This document shows positions 8,895 to 57,476 of a stretch of 64,000 bases of DNA, in pieces. Under the pieces are notes generated by a model, which did not search any database, was not told the DNA's origin, and was given only the letters and a program-made list of their open reading frames with translations. Made by a program: the position numbers and the translations under genes. This DNA comes from Cognatundibacterium aquatile (GTDB lineage Bacteria > Pseudomonadota > Gammaproteobacteria > Burkholderiales > Burkholderiaceae_D): assembly GCF_014699135.1 (NCBI RefSeq), contig NZ_JACOFT010000001.1, positions 558,001 to 622,000 of the forward strand, written 5' to 3'. Every line of letters begins with the position of its first letter. Position 1 is the first letter of the stretch.

Positions 8895-9785
8895 ATGGAT
8901 TTCCGCCGTCTGCCGAATCTTGCTGCTTTGCGTGCGTTTGAAGCGGCTTCCCGTCATGAAAATTTCTCGCGTGCTGCTGACGAAATTCACCTGACCCACG
9001 GCGCGATCAGCCATCAGGTCAGGGCGCTGGAAGAAGAGCTCGGCGTGGAGTTATTCGTCAGAAATGGCAAGCGCATCCGCATTACGCCGGACGGTGAACG
9101 TTTTGCCAGTGCGATCCGGCGTTCCTTGCAGGAATTGGCGGATGCGGCGGATTTGCTGCGTGACCGTAATAAGCAAAAACGGTTGGGGATCACATCGCTG
9201 CCTTCATTTGCTGCCCGCTGGTTGTCGCCGCGTCTGGGGCGTTTCATCGAACACCACCCCGACCTGGAAGTCAGCCTGCAATCGAGTTCATCGCTGGTCG
9301 ATTTCACCCGCGAGCAGGTGGATATTGCGATACGTTTTGGCCTCGGACATTATCCGGGACTCGTCAGCGAATTGCTGATGGGCGATGAATATTATCCTGT
9401 CATCAGCCCCACTTATCAGGCTGATAAAGTGCCGCAGACGCCAGCCGAGCTGGTGGGCGCACATTTGTTGCGTTGTGACGAAGAGCCCTGGTTGCCGTGG
9501 TTCCGGGCGGCCGGGCTGGATGCGGATGAACCCAGTGGCGGCCTGATTTTTCAGGATTCTTCCATGCTCGCCAGAGCGGCGGTCGATGGTCAGGGAATCG
9601 CGCTCGGCAGGCATGCGATCGTTGAATCGGATATTCAATCCGGCCTGCTGCGACGCTTGTTTGACATCAGTATTCCTTGCCCTGTGTCGTATTACCTCGT
9701 GTATCCGGCGAGTTCTATGGATAAGCCACAGGTCAGGGCATTCAGGGAGTGGTTGCTGGCAGAAGTGCGCTCGGCCAGAACCTGA
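8895..9785 (+). CDS. LysR-family transcriptional regulator (GcvA-like)
   Basis: The 296-residue protein has an N-terminal winged helix-turn-helix (about 4-65; LRAFEAASRHENFSRAADE, THGAISHQVRALEEELG) and a periplasmic-binding-protein-like effector domain (about 90-290). The pattern RLPNLAALRAFEAA and the later DVAIRFG-like DIAIRFGLG are typical of the GcvA branch. The ATG at 8895 has AGGAG 11 bases upstream; an in-frame GTG/TTG further 5' would only add non-homologous residues. It is transcribed divergently from the DUF2917 gene, its likely target. Effector unknown. Confidence 0.92.
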   Translation: MDFRRLPNLAALRAFEAASRHENFSRAADEIHLTHGAISHQVRALEEELGVELFVRNGKRIRITPDGERFASAIRRSLQELADAADLLRDRNKQKRLGITSLPSFAARWLSPRLGRFIEHHPDLEVSLQSSSSLVDFTREQVDIAIRFGLGHYPGLVSELLMGDEYYPVISPTYQADKVPQTPAELVGAHLLRCDEEPWLPWFRAAGLDADEPSGGLIFQDSSMLARAAVDGQGIALGRHAIVESDIQSGLLRRLFDISIPCPVSYYLVYPASSMDKPQVRAFREWLLAEVRSART

Positions 9786-9793
9786 TTTCTTGC

Positions 9794-9875
9794 ATACTCC
9801 CCCTCGTTTTAATGAAAAAGCCCTTTATGTCCGCAGAAATAAAGGGCTTTAAAATATACTGGGGGGAGTATATTC
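9794..9875 (+). repeat. Dispersed intergenic element, copy A
   Basis: Outer arms ATACTCCCCC (9794-9803) and GGGGGAGTAT (9862-9871) are perfect 10-bp inverted repeats. Inside, AAAGCCCTTTA (9817-9827) and TAAAGGGCTTT (9840-9850) form a perfect 11-bp hairpin. The right end is itself a palindrome, ATATACT-N6-AGTATAT. The copy fills the space between the convergent LysR gene and ybeD, where it could act as a two-way terminator. Three relatives occur near 18.5, 45.5 and 57.4 kb. Confidence 0.8.
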
Positions 9876-18303: not shown

Positions 18304-18626
18304 GTCGTCAGTGTAAACGAGATAACTGTTTTGCTGCAATGAAGCAAAGCATACATTGACTGAGGTTGATCTTCATTAAAAGAAATACGCCATCGGCGTC
18401 TGAGCTCGACCGCTAGCGATGACGTAAGTCAGATGCTTTGCTGGCAAAACTGGTTTTATTCTGCTGTGAAAATGAGCTTTAAGGGGGAGTATATTCAAAA
18501 ATCGGGCTATTCTCAGCATAAACATTGGGCTTTTAAATATACTCCACCCAGTATATTTAGTGCTCAACAGGCGCGCATGGGCACGTAACGGGGATGCTGC
18601 ATCGGTGTTGTCACTTGGTGTAACGC
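18304..18626. other. 323-bp intergenic region holding repeat copy B
   Basis: Between the minus-strand permease start and the minus-strand phosphoethanolamine transferase stop there is no coding sequence I can support. The only structured content is the dispersed element at 18483-18558. The permease promoter should lie at its lower end, but I could not place it. Confidence 0.6.
18483..18558 (+). repeat. Dispersed intergenic element, copy B
   Basis: It starts with GGGGGAGTATATT and ends with the palindrome ATATACT-CCACCC-AGTATAT (18537-18556). The interior ATAAACATTGGGCTTTTAA closely matches copy C read on the opposite strand. It lies between two minus-strand genes. Confidence 0.78.
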
Positions 18627-20501
18627 TTATTTCTCTTGCCGTACCGGCGTTTTTTTATCAATCACTTCGCGACAATCTCCCTTCAGCGTCGCATTATCGT
18701 AATCAGACCATCCGTAACTATCGACATAGCGCGTGTGCGCAACCAGTTGCGGGCTGAGGATGCTCCAGTTCAGCCTTTCGTCGGGATAGCGGATATTGCC
18801 CATGTCGAGCAAGGTGTGAAACACGTTTTCTGTTGACAGACGGAATTTCTGATGGCGTTTGAGCTGGCGGATTTTTTCTGGAAACAGTTGCTGATAGTCA
18901 TCCGAATACCAGATGAAGGCAGGGATGTGAAATTCGTATTGCGTATTGTGACCATGAAACGCCAGACCGCAAGTGCCGTCATACAAGGTTTGCCCATGAT
19001 CGGAGATATACATCATCGAGGTGACTTGCTGGCTGGCCTTCAGGCGCTGTATGACTTCCGACAATATCCAGTCAGTGTACAGAATTGAATTGTCATAGCT
19101 GTTGTTGAGTGCCGGTTTATTCTTCAGGTCAGTATAGGCCGGGTTATCGACCCCGAACAGCGATGGTTTCCAGTGGTCGTATTCTTTCGGGTGGCGATGG
19201 CTGTAATTCCAGTGGTTGCCCAAGGTATGTAAGACGATCAGTTTTTTCGGTGTGGCATCGTTCAGCGCGCGGCTCATGGGGTCGAGCAGGATGTCATCGA
19301 AACTGGAATTATTGGTAAAGCCCCCGAGATTCAGAAATTGCGTGACATCGGCTTCTTTCGCGAACACTGAGATCGGCGTGTCGAACTGACCAAAGCTCAT
19401 CTGGTTCGATATCCAGAAGGTTTTGAATCCCGCTTCTTTAAACGCAGACAGAAAGGATTTTTCAGAGAAACCGGCCTTCAGGCTTTGTGCCGCCGGTTTG
19501 CGCGACACAATAACAGGCACCGACAGGCGAGTTGCAGCAACGGCGGTAATCATGTCGCTGAAGCTGACCAGATTGTCTTCCAGTGATAACAAGGGATTCG
19601 TTTCACGTTCGTAGCCATTCAGGCTCCAGCGGTCGTAGCGCGATGACTCTCCAAGCACTACGACGATAGTTTGCGCTAACTTTGGATCGCCTTCGAGGGC
19701 GGCGTTGAAGCGGAAGTTGCGGCTTTTTTCAGACAGCTTCGATAAATATCCACGTTCGCTCCAGAAGTCAGCAATACGCACTGCGAGGCCGAATGGCCAG
19801 GTACTTGTGAAGACATCCTCGTCGTAACGTATTTGAGCCCAGGACGGCAGCGGGCCAAGGGCGTGGCTTAATTTCTGTCGTTGATGCTCCAGCCAAACCA
19901 GTGGAATCACTTTGCCCATCGGCTTGGCACTGGCGACCGAAACGGGCTCACCGTCGCTGTCGTCGTCGCTATGGCTACTTGCCGCTGACGCTGATGCTGG
20001 TGGTGCAGTGACGCCAACATATTCGCCGTAACCCCAGATGCAGAACCCCATCGCCACCATACTGATCAACGCCCAGCGGCTTGGATGTTGCCAGTGCAGC
20101 GCCGGCGTGTTCAGCGCAATTTTCAGCAGGCTCCACCACCACGCTGTAATCATCAGCGTCAGAAACAGCAGCAGCCAGATTTTTTGCCCCAGAAATTCAA
20201 TCGCTTCTTTGGGGCTGGTCTCTAGCAGTATGCCCAGGTGATGAGTCGAAATGCTCTGTCCGAAATACAGGCGCAGATAAATCTCTATGGGTATCGCCAG
20301 CATTGCCGGCAGTAACAGGAAATGAAACCAGCGCGGATGCTTGAAGACCGCCCACAGTATCGGCCAGCAGATGACCTCCATCGCCAGCAGCTGCCAGCCT
20401 TTTTCTACCGGTTTGCCCAGCATCAGCGAAAAAAATGGAATCGCTGAGAGCAGCAGGTAACTCAATAACAGAAAGAGAGGGCTTGGGCGTAATAAAGAGC
20501 G
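18627..20501 (-). CDS. Phosphoethanolamine transferase, sulfatase-fold (EptA/CptA-like)
   Basis: This 624-residue inner membrane protein has about five N-terminal helices (to about residue 170), a low-complexity Ser/Asp linker (near 175-200) and a periplasmic alkaline-phosphatase-fold domain. VVLGESSRYDRWSLNGYERETNP carries the metal-ligand glutamate; the expected nucleophile is in the TAVAATRLSVP segment. Further metal-binding residues are in TLGNHWNYSHRHP and SDHGQTLY.G. The family transfers phosphoethanolamine to lipid A or LPS core and can raise polymyxin resistance; the precise acceptor is unknown. The ATG at 20501 fits the start of the membrane domain; a GTG at 20582 gives a longer basic N terminus. 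The Ser-Asp linker is unusual. Confidence 0.85.
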   Translation of the reverse strand, partial: RSLLRPSPLFLLLSYLLLSAIPFFSLMLGKPVEKGWQLLAMEVICWPILWAVFKHPRWFHFLLLPAMLAIPIEIYLRLYFGQSISTHHLGILLETSPKEAIEFLGQKIWLLLFLTLMITAWWWSLLKIALNTPALHWQHPSRWALISMVAMGFCIWGYGEYVGVTAPPASASAASSHSDDDSDGEPVSVASAKPMGKVIPLVWLEHQRQKLSHALGPLPSWAQIRYDEDVFTSTWPFGLAVRIADFWSERGYLSKLSEKSRNFRFNAALEGDPKLAQTIVVVLGESSRYDRWSLNGYERETNPLLSLEDNLVSFSDMITAVAATRLSVPVIVSRKPAAQSLKAGFSEKSFLSAFKEAGFKTFWISNQMSFGQFDTPISVFAKEADVTQFLNLGGFTNNSSFDDILLDPMSRALNDATPKKLIVLHTLGNHWNYSHRHPKEYDHWKPSLFGVDNPAYTDLKNKPALNNSYDNSILYTDWILSEVIQRLKASQQVTSMMYISDHGQTLYDGTCGLAFHGHNTQYEFHIPAFIWYSDDYQQLFPEKIRQLKRHQKFRLSTENVFHTLLDMGNIRYPDERLNWSILSPQLVAHTRYVDSYGWSDYDNATLKGDCREVIDKKTPVRQEK

Positions 20502-45448: not shown

Positions 45449-45524
45449 AAATATACTGGGGGGAGTATTTTTAAATGCTCAATGTTTATAAGGAAATGAA
45501 GGGTATTTAACCACATACTCCCCC
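45449..45524 (-). repeat. Dispersed intergenic element, copy C
   Basis: GGGGGAGTAT (45459-45468) and ATACTCCCCC (45515-45524) are the outer arms. The left end is the palindrome ATATACT-GGGGGG-AGTAT. Read on the minus strand its interior ATAAACATTGAGCATTTAA matches copy B. It lies between the CorA-like gene's stop and the sbcB start, both on the minus strand, and could be the terminator of the former. Confidence 0.78.
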
Positions 45525-45533
45525 AAAAACGTA

Positions 45534-46628
45534 TTATCGACGCGAATTGCGCAGGCGATCTTCGAGGTAGCGCTGGCTGCGGAAATATATCAACAGCAGC
45601 ACGACGATGAAGCCCATCGCACCCATCGTGATCCAGAAACCGGAGGCGTTTTTGAGCAGCGGCATGACTTCAAAATTCATACCGAAAATCCCGGTAATCA
45701 GTGTCAGTGGCATGAACAAGGCCGTGATGACTGTCAGGGTGCGCATGATTTCGCTGGTGCGGTGCGCCATCGCAGAAAAGTGTATCTGCACCGCCGATTC
45801 CAGCGATGCTTCGAGGCGGCGCGCATGATTCAGTACGCGGCTGATGTGTTCCATCACATCAGTCGTGCGAACCAATAACAAATCTTTCGCACGGCTTTGC
45901 GCATCGTCATTGCCGTCATGCGTATCGACGATATGATCGCGCAATTCCTGCAATGCATCGCGTTGTTCTTCGCACAGATTATCGAGTTTGCGTAATTCCA
46001 GACGCGAATCGAGCAAGGCCATCCAATTATTGAACGGGCGGCGCGGGTCCAGCAGCGCGTGCTGCCAGCGATCGAGTTGTTGTGTCAGTGGCTGGCGCAA
46101 TTCCAGATACTGATCCACCATCGCATTGAGTAAGCGCAGCATCAGATCTTCGGGTGACGCTGGCAAGCGACCATGACTGCCGCCATCGGCTTTGGCCTTG
46201 TAATTCAGCAAGCGGGCGCGGGCGTTGTCGATGGTTTTGCTGTTCGCCGCACGGACGGTGACAAGCGCATGACTGAAGACAAAAAAGGAGACCGGAACGG
46301 TCAATAATTTATTCAGCGCAGCCGGAATTTTCCGTTTTTCTGTGGTGTCGGTTGCGACAGCTTCACCGTTTAACGCGAGCTTGCGAAAGACCACCAACTC
46401 GTAATCATGGGTGTTATCGAAATACGAAGGATGGCTCAGATTGACGGCATCGCTCAGATGCAGATCGTAAATATGAATGCCGGTAATGCGTTCTACTTCT
46501 GCCCGCCATGCCTCTGCATTGTTGCTGACTTCATCGTGGGTTGCATCCAGCCACAGAAAGCCTTGCGGTGTGACGGCGGAATCCGGATTGAGTAATACCT
46601 GATTGTCGTTAATATGAAAGATATCCAT
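45534..46628 (-). CDS. CorA-like magnesium/metal ion transporter
   Basis: This 364-residue inner membrane protein has a long cytoplasmic alpha/beta domain and two C-terminal helices joined by the periplasmic GMNFE loop (TGIFGMNFEVMPLLK). The GMN motif defines the CorA family; ZntB-like members share it, so magnesium, zinc or another divalent ion is possible. It ends KNASGFWITMGAMGFIVVLLLIYFRSQRYLEDRL. The start overlaps the 3' end of the sterol desaturase-like gene by 20 bases. Confidence 0.88.
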   Translation of the reverse strand: MDIFHINDNQVLLNPDSAVTPQGFLWLDATHDEVSNNAEAWRAEVERITGIHIYDLHLSDAVNLSHPSYFDNTHDYELVVFRKLALNGEAVATDTTEKRKIPAALNKLLTVPVSFFVFSHALVTVRAANSKTIDNARARLLNYKAKADGGSHGRLPASPEDLMLRLLNAMVDQYLELRQPLTQQLDRWQHALLDPRRPFNNWMALLDSRLELRKLDNLCEEQRDALQELRDHIVDTHDGNDDAQSRAKDLLLVRTTDVMEHISRVLNHARRLEASLESAVQIHFSAMAHRTSEIMRTLTVITALFMPLTLITGIFGMNFEVMPLLKNASGFWITMGAMGFIVVLLLIYFRSQRYLEDRLRNSRR

Positions 46629-56812: not shown

Positions 56813-57406
56813 ATGCAAACGCTGACGCAGCGCGTGGCGTTGCGACTGTTAAGTTGCATCGGATGGAAGGTGCATTTCCGTCCCTTGCCCGGTCCCCGGG
56901 GCATCATCATCGTTTATCCGCATACGTCAAACTGGGATTTTCCTATCGGTGTTCTGGGAAAGCTGGCGATCGGTATGCCATTTTATTTCATCGCAAAGTC
57001 TTCTCTGTTCGAAGGCTTCACTGGCGCGACGATAGGCCGCATTATCCGCGCTTTGGGCGGCGAACCTGTGGAGCGCGGTGTCTCGACTGGTGCGATTTCC
57101 CGGTTGGCGGAAAAAGTCAATCAGTCTGACTGGTACTGGATGGTGATCGCACCTGAAGGCACCCGTAGTCGTAAACCTTACTGGCGCAGCGGGTTTTATC
57201 ACATCACTTGCGCTGCCAGGGTTCCTTTGGGCTGCGCCTATTTTGATTTTCGTCGCAAAGAAGTCAGTCTGGTCGACTATCTTGAGTTAAGTGGCGACAT
57301 CGATGGCGATCTGGCGAAGATACGCGGCATTTACGATGGCGTGCAGGGGTGTCGTCCGCAACTCGCCAGCCCGATACAGTTTCGCCCCGATAACGCTAAA
57401 AAATAG
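56813..57406 (+). CDS. Lysophospholipid acyltransferase family protein
   Basis: This 197-residue PlsC-like acyltransferase has a variant catalytic block HTSNWDFP (H-x4-D) near residue 40 and the acceptor block PEGTRSRKPYWRSGFYH near 125. It is about 50 residues shorter than typical PlsC and has no strong membrane helix, so it may act on lipid A-like or phospholipid precursors rather than being the main PlsC. ATG 56813 follows AAGGA; ATG 56783 has no such site. The TAG stop abuts dispersed element copy D. Confidence 0.82.
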   Translation: MQTLTQRVALRLLSCIGWKVHFRPLPGPRGIIIVYPHTSNWDFPIGVLGKLAIGMPFYFIAKSSLFEGFTGATIGRIIRALGGEPVERGVSTGAISRLAEKVNQSDWYWMVIAPEGTRSRKPYWRSGFYHITCAARVPLGCAYFDFRRKEVSLVDYLELSGDIDGDLAKIRGIYDGVQGCRPQLASPIQFRPDNAKK

Positions 57407-57476
57407 GGAGTATATGCCAAAAATGCTTGAATCTCTACGAATATAAAGGGGCTTTAAATATACTCCCGGGGAGTAT
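57407..57476 (+). repeat. Dispersed intergenic element, copy D
   Basis: It starts GGGAGTATAT immediately after the acyltransferase stop and ends in ATACTCCC-G-GGGAGTAT, whose last bases lead straight into the lptM stop codon. The interior ATAAAGGGGCTTTAAATATACT matches copy A. It fills exactly the 69-bp space between two convergent genes. Confidence 0.78.

Follow-up and report, generated by a model that had tools for sequence, protein, structure and literature searches.

Dispersed Elements in the Window and the Genome

The locus at 9794–9875 raises the question of what a short palindromic element lying between two convergent genes is, and which host factor, if any, would recognize it and its relatives. 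Such elements recur in the window, by which we mean the whole analyzed stretch of 64,000 nucleotides (G000:C1:558001-622000), which comes from a genome of 3.9 Mb assembled into 17 contigs. A preliminary description of the window had listed four copies, A to D, and all four are present by both sequence and pattern counts. The pattern GGGGGAGTAT, with up to one mismatch, has 7 sites in the window against 1.27 expected (7 was reached in 1 of 100 shuffles), and TATACTCCCCCCAGTATA, with up to three mismatches, has 3 sites against 0.03 expected. The same description expected many more copies elsewhere, which proved correct: TATACT-N6-AGTATA has 49 sites genome-wide, compared to 2 for the reversed control pattern, and 48 of these are accompanied by a second half-site 45–55 bp away (the centre of the remaining site, L026, is unrelated). 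In a profile search with form 2 of the element (see below), 150 of 150 scored candidates matched, giving at least 144 distinct places once six opposite-strand echoes were removed by eye, a count that is a lower bound for the form 1 and form 2 profiles alike. The strand of the elements along the contigs is mixed, as judged by eye.

The earlier description knew of no named family with this consensus, and none of copies A–D matched Rfam at the gathering threshold in a search of the whole window. The sole gathering-level Rfam match in the window was anti-hemB (RF02837; 49110-49196, 51.5 bits). In literature word searches, TATACTCC was absent among the matches listed, a search for any of three site words returned no title on bacterial repeats among the matches listed, and the three words together gave a sole match that is unrelated by title. 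A word search of PMC12306157 gave no match for Undibacterium, Burkholderi, or RAYT. Going by these searches, we found no earlier description, among the matches listed, of the element family or of its link to the PF02583 protein discussed below.

Anatomy of the Element

The element spans ~80 bp and comprises three dyads: a full one (P), a second with one arm only (H), and, between the two, an inner one (Q). P is an 18-bp TATACT-N6-AGTATA dyad with the flanking arms AAATATACT-N6-AGTATATTT; its centre is CCCCCC/GGGGGG in 25 of 48 copies and largely G/C in the remainder, and it is freer, and not G/C-rich, in distant species. H occurs in two forms: form 1, ATACTCCCC, starts 45–46 bp past P (27 of the 48 own copies), and form 2, GGGGAGTAT, has its GGAGTAT start at 54–55 bp (21 of 48). 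All 90 distinct copies from this genome and the fetched relatives use the four H positions 45, 46, 54, and 55, and in seven other genomes H starts at 45–47 and 54–57. In both forms, the 6-bp C/G centre of H falls at one point, 62–63 bp from the P centre (up to 65 bp in relatives), a distance of about six helical turns. Both H arms are intact in none of the 48 copies, and the absent arm matches in 4 of 5 bases in three form-2 copies. The element had been described as bounded by matching repeats; it does have two ends, but they are not equal repeats, one being the full 18-bp dyad and the other a half-site.

Copy A (form 2; 9794..9875, P to H on the minus strand) sits between convergent genes ending at 9785 (plus strand) and 9891 (minus strand). 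Pattern matching places its P (TATACTGGGGGGAGTATA) at 9855..9872 and its H, with the arm on the outer side, at 9794..9803, while Q (9829..9847, GTCC..GGGC on the plus strand) lies within a longer inner hairpin and was set by cross-species comparison. The perfect inner hairpin noted earlier in copy A is real but not general, being absent from many of the 48 copies. Copy B (form 1; 18483..18558, minus strand) is located 3′ of a minus-strand gene ending at 18627, with pattern matches to P (TATACTCCACCCAGTATA) at 18538..18555 and to H, arm on the inner side, at 18483..18492. Copy C (form 1; 45449..45524, plus strand) lies directly 3′ of a minus-strand gene ending at 45534; its P match (45452..45469) has one TATACT arm and one change in the other arm, and its H match (45515..45524) has the arm on the inner side. 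Copy D (form 1, minus strand), previously given a start of 57407, runs from 57406 to 57476, so that its H (GGGAGTAT, 57406..57413) overlaps the last base of the TAG stop codon of a plus-strand gene ending at 57406; its P (57459..57476) has a 7-bp centre (TATACT-CCCGGGG-AGTAT), both sites being read from the sequence. H points inward in the form-1 copies B, C, and D, and outward in copy A.

The arms of Q, read by eye, vary by lineage. They are GCCC..GGAC-like in this genome, GTCCA..TGGAC in 4 of 4 fetched copies from G147, and TGCGCA-like in ~7 of the 13 distinct fetched copies from G127, G129, and G146. At locus A, the site of copy A, the copies in G127 and G146 have a TGCGCA-type Q, which those of this genome and U. 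rivi do not. Our reading is that Q may have undergone concerted change or have co-evolved with a trans-acting partner. The Q arm reading, like the strict terminator scan and gene caller used below, is a simple method of our own.

Placement at Gene Ends

From 47 loci we obtained 30 distinct copies (10 loci were skipped and 7 were duplicates), 29 of which face the 3′ end of a gene as predicted by a simple hexamer gene caller, with 14 lying between convergent genes and 1 between divergent genes. By comparison, the 31 window gaps of 80–600 bp include 3 convergent and 5 divergent gaps. Bidirectional transcription terminators, or structured 3′-UTR RNAs marking mRNA ends, would account for such placement, including the 14 of 30 convergent copies, and a terminator family had been suggested for these elements. 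Mean folding z-scores are −2.2 to −3.4 for both strands, in keeping with such RNAs, although inverted repeats necessarily give good values. By eye, an ordinary hairpin is present at locus A in several element-free genomes, and the locus A copy of G063 has a perfect G/C hairpin between A and T runs. Canonical terminators, however, were detected by the strict scan inside just 3 of the 48 copies, compared to 12 just outside H and 4 outside P (shuffle means of 0.2, 1.2, and 2.0, respectively), which speaks against a family of intrinsic terminators. Given also that the inner hairpin is gone from many copies, and that strict P arms around a free centre look more like a protein dyad than an RNA stem, we regard a terminator or RNA function of the element as unlikely. 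A paired RNA stem between H and P was rejected as well, the pairing being poor and not maintained in distant species. The canonical terminator of the adjacent gene often abuts H, or has H within its loop, at L003, L042, and their neighbours; at L003, H sits in the loop of a terminator-like hairpin.

Positional Stability and Mobility

The four window copies are all found at matching places in U. rivi (G085), and the corresponding 78 kb of that genome yielded no extra copy. Copy B is almost unchanged there, with strongly diverged flanks. For locus A, 30 loci were fetched, 17 of them with both flanking genes. The element adjoins the LysR-type gene in nine (G000, G085, G063, G032 (U. griseum), G126 (U. 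oligocarboniphilum), G136, G104, G127, and G146), where the flanking protein is that of this genome or is 67–99% identical to it, and another gene now lies beyond the element in G136 and G104. By eye, the element is absent from eight of the 17 (G123, G128, G133, G134, G138, G141, G152, and G153), with a lone GGAGTAT in G128; no empty site was found in close relatives, and these eight element-free regions are too diverged for comparison.

Spacer identity across 23 pairs of copies from this genome and U. rivi is 91.7%, compared to 75.5% and 83.0% in the adjacent 50-bp flanks (p = 1.8e-4), while the flanks 51–200 bp out are 85.3% and 88.7% identical, little below the spacer. P and H are 98.4% and 99.0% identical, values that are biased upward since 21 of the 23 pairs were picked by exact P. 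We propose that the positions of the elements may be held by selection.

The elements had been suggested to be a small mobile family of REP or MITE type. Stable positions, together with spacers more conserved than the adjacent flanks, argue against current mobility. A variant of the idea, in which a REP- or MITE-like non-autonomous family was spread long ago by a transposase recognizing the P and H ends and is now mostly immobile, would explain the fixed internal spacing of at least 144 similar copies, their good folding as DNA strands, and a longer-flank sub-family clustered at C1:64-76 kb. It sits less well with the places shared with U. rivi (4 of 4 in the window), with the nine genomes sharing locus A, and with the conservation of the spacer above its adjacent flanks. 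Nor does a RAYT-type transposase, put forward earlier as a possible partner, carry matching ends in this genome, since its single Y1/RAYT-type gene has no half-site in the surrounding 3.3 kb. Half-sites lie near the Y1 gene in only 1 of 11 genomes inspected, 42 of the 43 genus genomes have a Y1/RAYT-type match whether or not they carry elements, and plasmid and phage records searched with copy B gave no match. We therefore consider an ancient mobile family doubtful as the explanation, while noting that ancient transposition followed by adoption as binding sites is compatible with all the evidence.

REP/BIME and REPIN sequences, which are associated with RAYT transposases, are short palindromes dispersed between genes, often at gene ends, in >100 copies per genome. 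The elements share the short, dispersed, palindromic, intergenic, and gene-end character and the copy number, but differ in having no RAYT-flanking copies in this genome, in pairing a full dyad with a half-site at fixed spacing, and in having a repressor-like candidate partner. Correia/NEMIS, RUP, and similar MITEs are ~80–150 bp, dispersed, and non-coding, with inverted ends. Here, the elements are likewise ~80 bp, dispersed, and non-coding, with inverted ends in form 2; however, the ends themselves are different, form 1 (27 of 48 copies) lacks outward inverted ends, and no gain or loss relative to U. rivi was seen in the window.

Within 11 kb at L172 (G000:C1:64362-75685), six form-2 copies lie on one strand amid small genes, and five of the six are alike for ~50–100 bp past the P end; these copies are evidently a sub-family that was duplicated separately. 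This same-strand cluster prompted us to consider integron attC sites, a reading that was provisionally set aside because recombinases inspected beside or near copies look XerC-/XerD-like and the element ends lack what we take to be the attC core boxes. There are nine tyrosine-recombinase matches in the genome, of which three were inspected and two are, by eye, XerC- and XerD-like by sequence and place. The shape of the dyads, arms around a 6-bp centre, would also allow a tyrosine-recombinase core, which we rejected, with no gain, loss, or partner seen.

Operator Match and Co-Occurrence with a PF02583 Protein

In the available portions of PMC3902906 and PMC5146963, type-1 operators of CsoR/RcnR regulators are described as TACT-G6-N-AGTA, with six to nine bases between the repeats; they have G/C tracts between AT-rich inverted repeats, are read partly via A-like DNA shape, and may be wrapped. 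P has the features of this class, namely a TACT/AGTA-type inverted repeat around a G/C tract, with 37 G/C-only centres in this genome. An exact P (L089:2056-2073) also precedes a PF02583 gene (80.1 bits) of Bordetella genomosp. 1 by 64 bp. This is a single upstream site, and the PF02583 protein concerned keeps the sensor His and Cys. Other non-Undibacterium matches of the genome-contig scan were mostly chance-like, save those in a groundwater metagenome-assembled genome (MAG) and two soil MAGs.

PF02583 proteins in the 43 genus genomes comprise an FrmR-type group (76–88 bits, 14 genomes) and a second subfamily (50.5–62.6 bits, 26 genomes). With kinship among these 43 related genomes ignored, the second subfamily is present in 19 of 19 genomes with at least one profile match versus 7 of 24 without (p = 8.8e-7), or 16 of 16 versus 10 of 27 at five or more matches (p = 2.1e-5), whereas FrmR-type genes do not track the elements (9 of 19 versus 5 of 24, p = 0.10). 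G138 and G141 count as element genomes through one marginal match each (E near 0.009). More widely, a G/C-centred P was found in 5 of 116 family genomes, three from Undibacterium and two from genus g41 (G068 and G090). All five have the PF02583 subfamily, as does G041 (g41) despite having no P match; the protein is 66% identical in G068 and G090, and 71% identical in the groundwater MAG, which has elements. The subfamily protein occurs in 57 of 195 family genomes (10 of 44 genera), most of them without such sites. In the two g41 genomes, related modules were seen by eye at L050, L051, and L054, with a TATACTCCGCCCAGTATA-like P and an ATACCC H 43–46 bp apart; the g41 promoter dyad differs and is built on ATACCCGGTAT. 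A Legionellaceae MAG has TATACTGCGCGCAGTATA palindromes at L066 (5631-5669) and L108, including one tandem pair 3 bp apart, which are probably unrelated.

The Candidate Protein and Its Promoter

The candidate protein (104 a.a.) is encoded on the minus strand at G000:C1:55177-55488, ~500 kb from the window, and scores above the curated PF02583 cut-off (57.8 versus 22.8 bits). Its AlphaFold model is all-helical (mean pLDDT 87.8), and CsoR, CstR, InrS, or FrmR account for all 20 top Foldseek chains, although the best E-value is only 5.8e-3. The protein departs from the sensor fingerprint of X (Cys), Y (His), and Z (His/Cys or other): among 26 subfamily proteins, X is Cys in 25 and Z is His in 21, and Y is His in none (Ser in 14, Ala in 12). 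Given that the X Cys and Z His are mostly kept and the Y His is gone, the sensor site appears altered, not simply lost, a result that bears on sensing and not on DNA binding and that leaves room for a sensing role. Among the best 120 of 1,181 homologs, sources label the proteins as metal-sensitive or FrmR-family regulators and none names a DNA-organizing role. A literature word search joining 'CsoR family' and 'nucleoid-associated' gave no match.

Within 135 bp of the start of the subfamily gene, a TAC[TC]-N6/7-[AG]GTA dyad is present in 26 of 26 genus genomes, compared to 27 of 783 windows of the same loci, a control set that includes the operators themselves. The main promoter dyad has a 6-bp centre in 19 genomes and a 7-bp centre in 7. 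Outside the genus, the protein of genus g42 is 61–67% identical, and 2 of 3 inspected g42 genomes have the dyad at −54 to −62; a further g42 gene also has a promoter dyad, and one does not. No dyad was seen in the Collimonas- and Massilia-type genera with the protein. The coding sequence of the protein, in turn, seems to contain an H-like half-site: codons 3–5 read GAT-ACT-CCC in 18 of 21 genes coding Asp-Thr-Pro there (e.g., the gene at L302:4178-4489), a strong constraint given the 0.8% predicted from codon use in the remainder of these genes. Of the 19 element genomes, 15 have a promoter P–H distance of 72–73.5 bp, G138 has one of 60.5 bp, and three lack H; in four genomes without elements, the distance is 58.5 or 70.5 bp. 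As 72–73.5 bp is one turn longer than the distance in the elements, the two geometries are similar but not identical. Of the 26 proteins, that of G151 has diverged furthest (50% identical to that of this genome) and lacks the Cys; both fetched G151 elements have ATACCCC/GGGGTAT arms, and the promoter dyad there is TACTCCCCCCAGGTA (TACT-N7-GGTA).

From this sequence-level evidence, we infer, with good support, that the PF02583 protein would bind P and H. A different DNA-binding protein could instead dock at the elements, the PF02583 link being a coincidence of ancestry, as might be argued from the relatedness of the genomes, the unlike geometry of the promoter, and the seven genus genomes that have the PF02583 gene without elements. 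We consider such a coincidence improbable: 26 of 26 genomes have the promoter dyad and 18 of 21 genes the H-like codons, P matches a class of operator already described, and the arms are changed in G151. Still less plausible, and in our view highly improbable, is that the elements are operators of the formaldehyde regulator FrmR. Although this genome has an FrmR-type PF02583 gene (82.9 bits) and FrmR sites are of the same broad class, a different site, ATACCCCCCTACCCTAT, lies upstream of that gene, and FrmR-type genes are absent from 10 of the 19 element genomes.

Proposed Role of the Elements

On balance, we favour a reading in which the elements are docking modules for the PF02583 protein, which would regulate its own gene and whose sites were multiplied, kept in position, and probably serve an architectural, insulating, or roadblock function. 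P would be a type-1 operator dyad (TACT-N6-AGTA) and H a one-armed copy of a P-type site, with Q a third dyad between them, and the protein would autoregulate via the like dyad in its own promoter. Within one part of the genus Undibacterium, the site pair may then have been copied to well over 100 places, most of them at the 3′ ends of genes, where selection would have kept it. Tetramers on P and H could hold or wrap the intergenic DNA, and so insulate neighbouring genes or block read-through at gene ends; wrapping by RcnR is reportedly the subject of a paper by Iwig and Chivers. This role in wrapping, insulation, or roadblocking is conjecture on our part. Several points sit awkwardly with docking modules: seven genus genomes have the protein without a profile match, the 3′-end placement is unusual for a repressor, Q has no explanation, and the P centre in distant species is not G/C-rich, unlike classical type-1 sites.

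More tentatively, a CsoR/RcnR-family repressor with an altered sensor site may have turned into a genome-wide architectural or boundary protein, with which at least 144 paired elements at gene ends, stable in position, co-evolve. Compared to CsoR/RcnR/FrmR systems (DUF156, PF02583), such as E. coli RcnR, the shared features are the TACT/AGTA dyad around a 6-bp G/C-rich centre, the small all-helical PF02583 protein (as a predicted model), and a putative autoregulatory dyad upstream. What differs is that the site pairs are dispersed, number at least 144, and lie mostly at the 3′ ends of genes and not in promoters, that the Y His is absent (0 of 26), and that the P centre is free in distant species. 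The matS and Noc sites belong to nucleoid-associated or domain-marking families, with many conserved, dispersed sites for one host protein. The elements resemble them as many conserved, dispersed sites for one candidate host protein, but are 80-bp two-site modules at gene ends, and the candidate protein is of another family.

If the docking reading is correct, a global DNA-organizing protein can evolve from a small local family of repressors, and a REP-like repeat family gains a named candidate partner, which most REP-like repeats, to our knowledge, do not have. The genus and its relatives would also offer a natural series, from one-operator relatives to genomes with well over 100 site pairs, for testing the function of intergenic palindromes at gene ends.

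The spacing of copies along the chromosome offers a hint in the same direction. Using 98 positions on three contigs, gap evenness was unclear on C9 (fraction of simulations as even, 0.243) and C1 (0.141, or 0.015 without five clustered copies, a post hoc exclusion). On C11, the gaps between copies are more even than random (CV 0.55, with 0.0005 of simulations as low), which hints at an architectural role.
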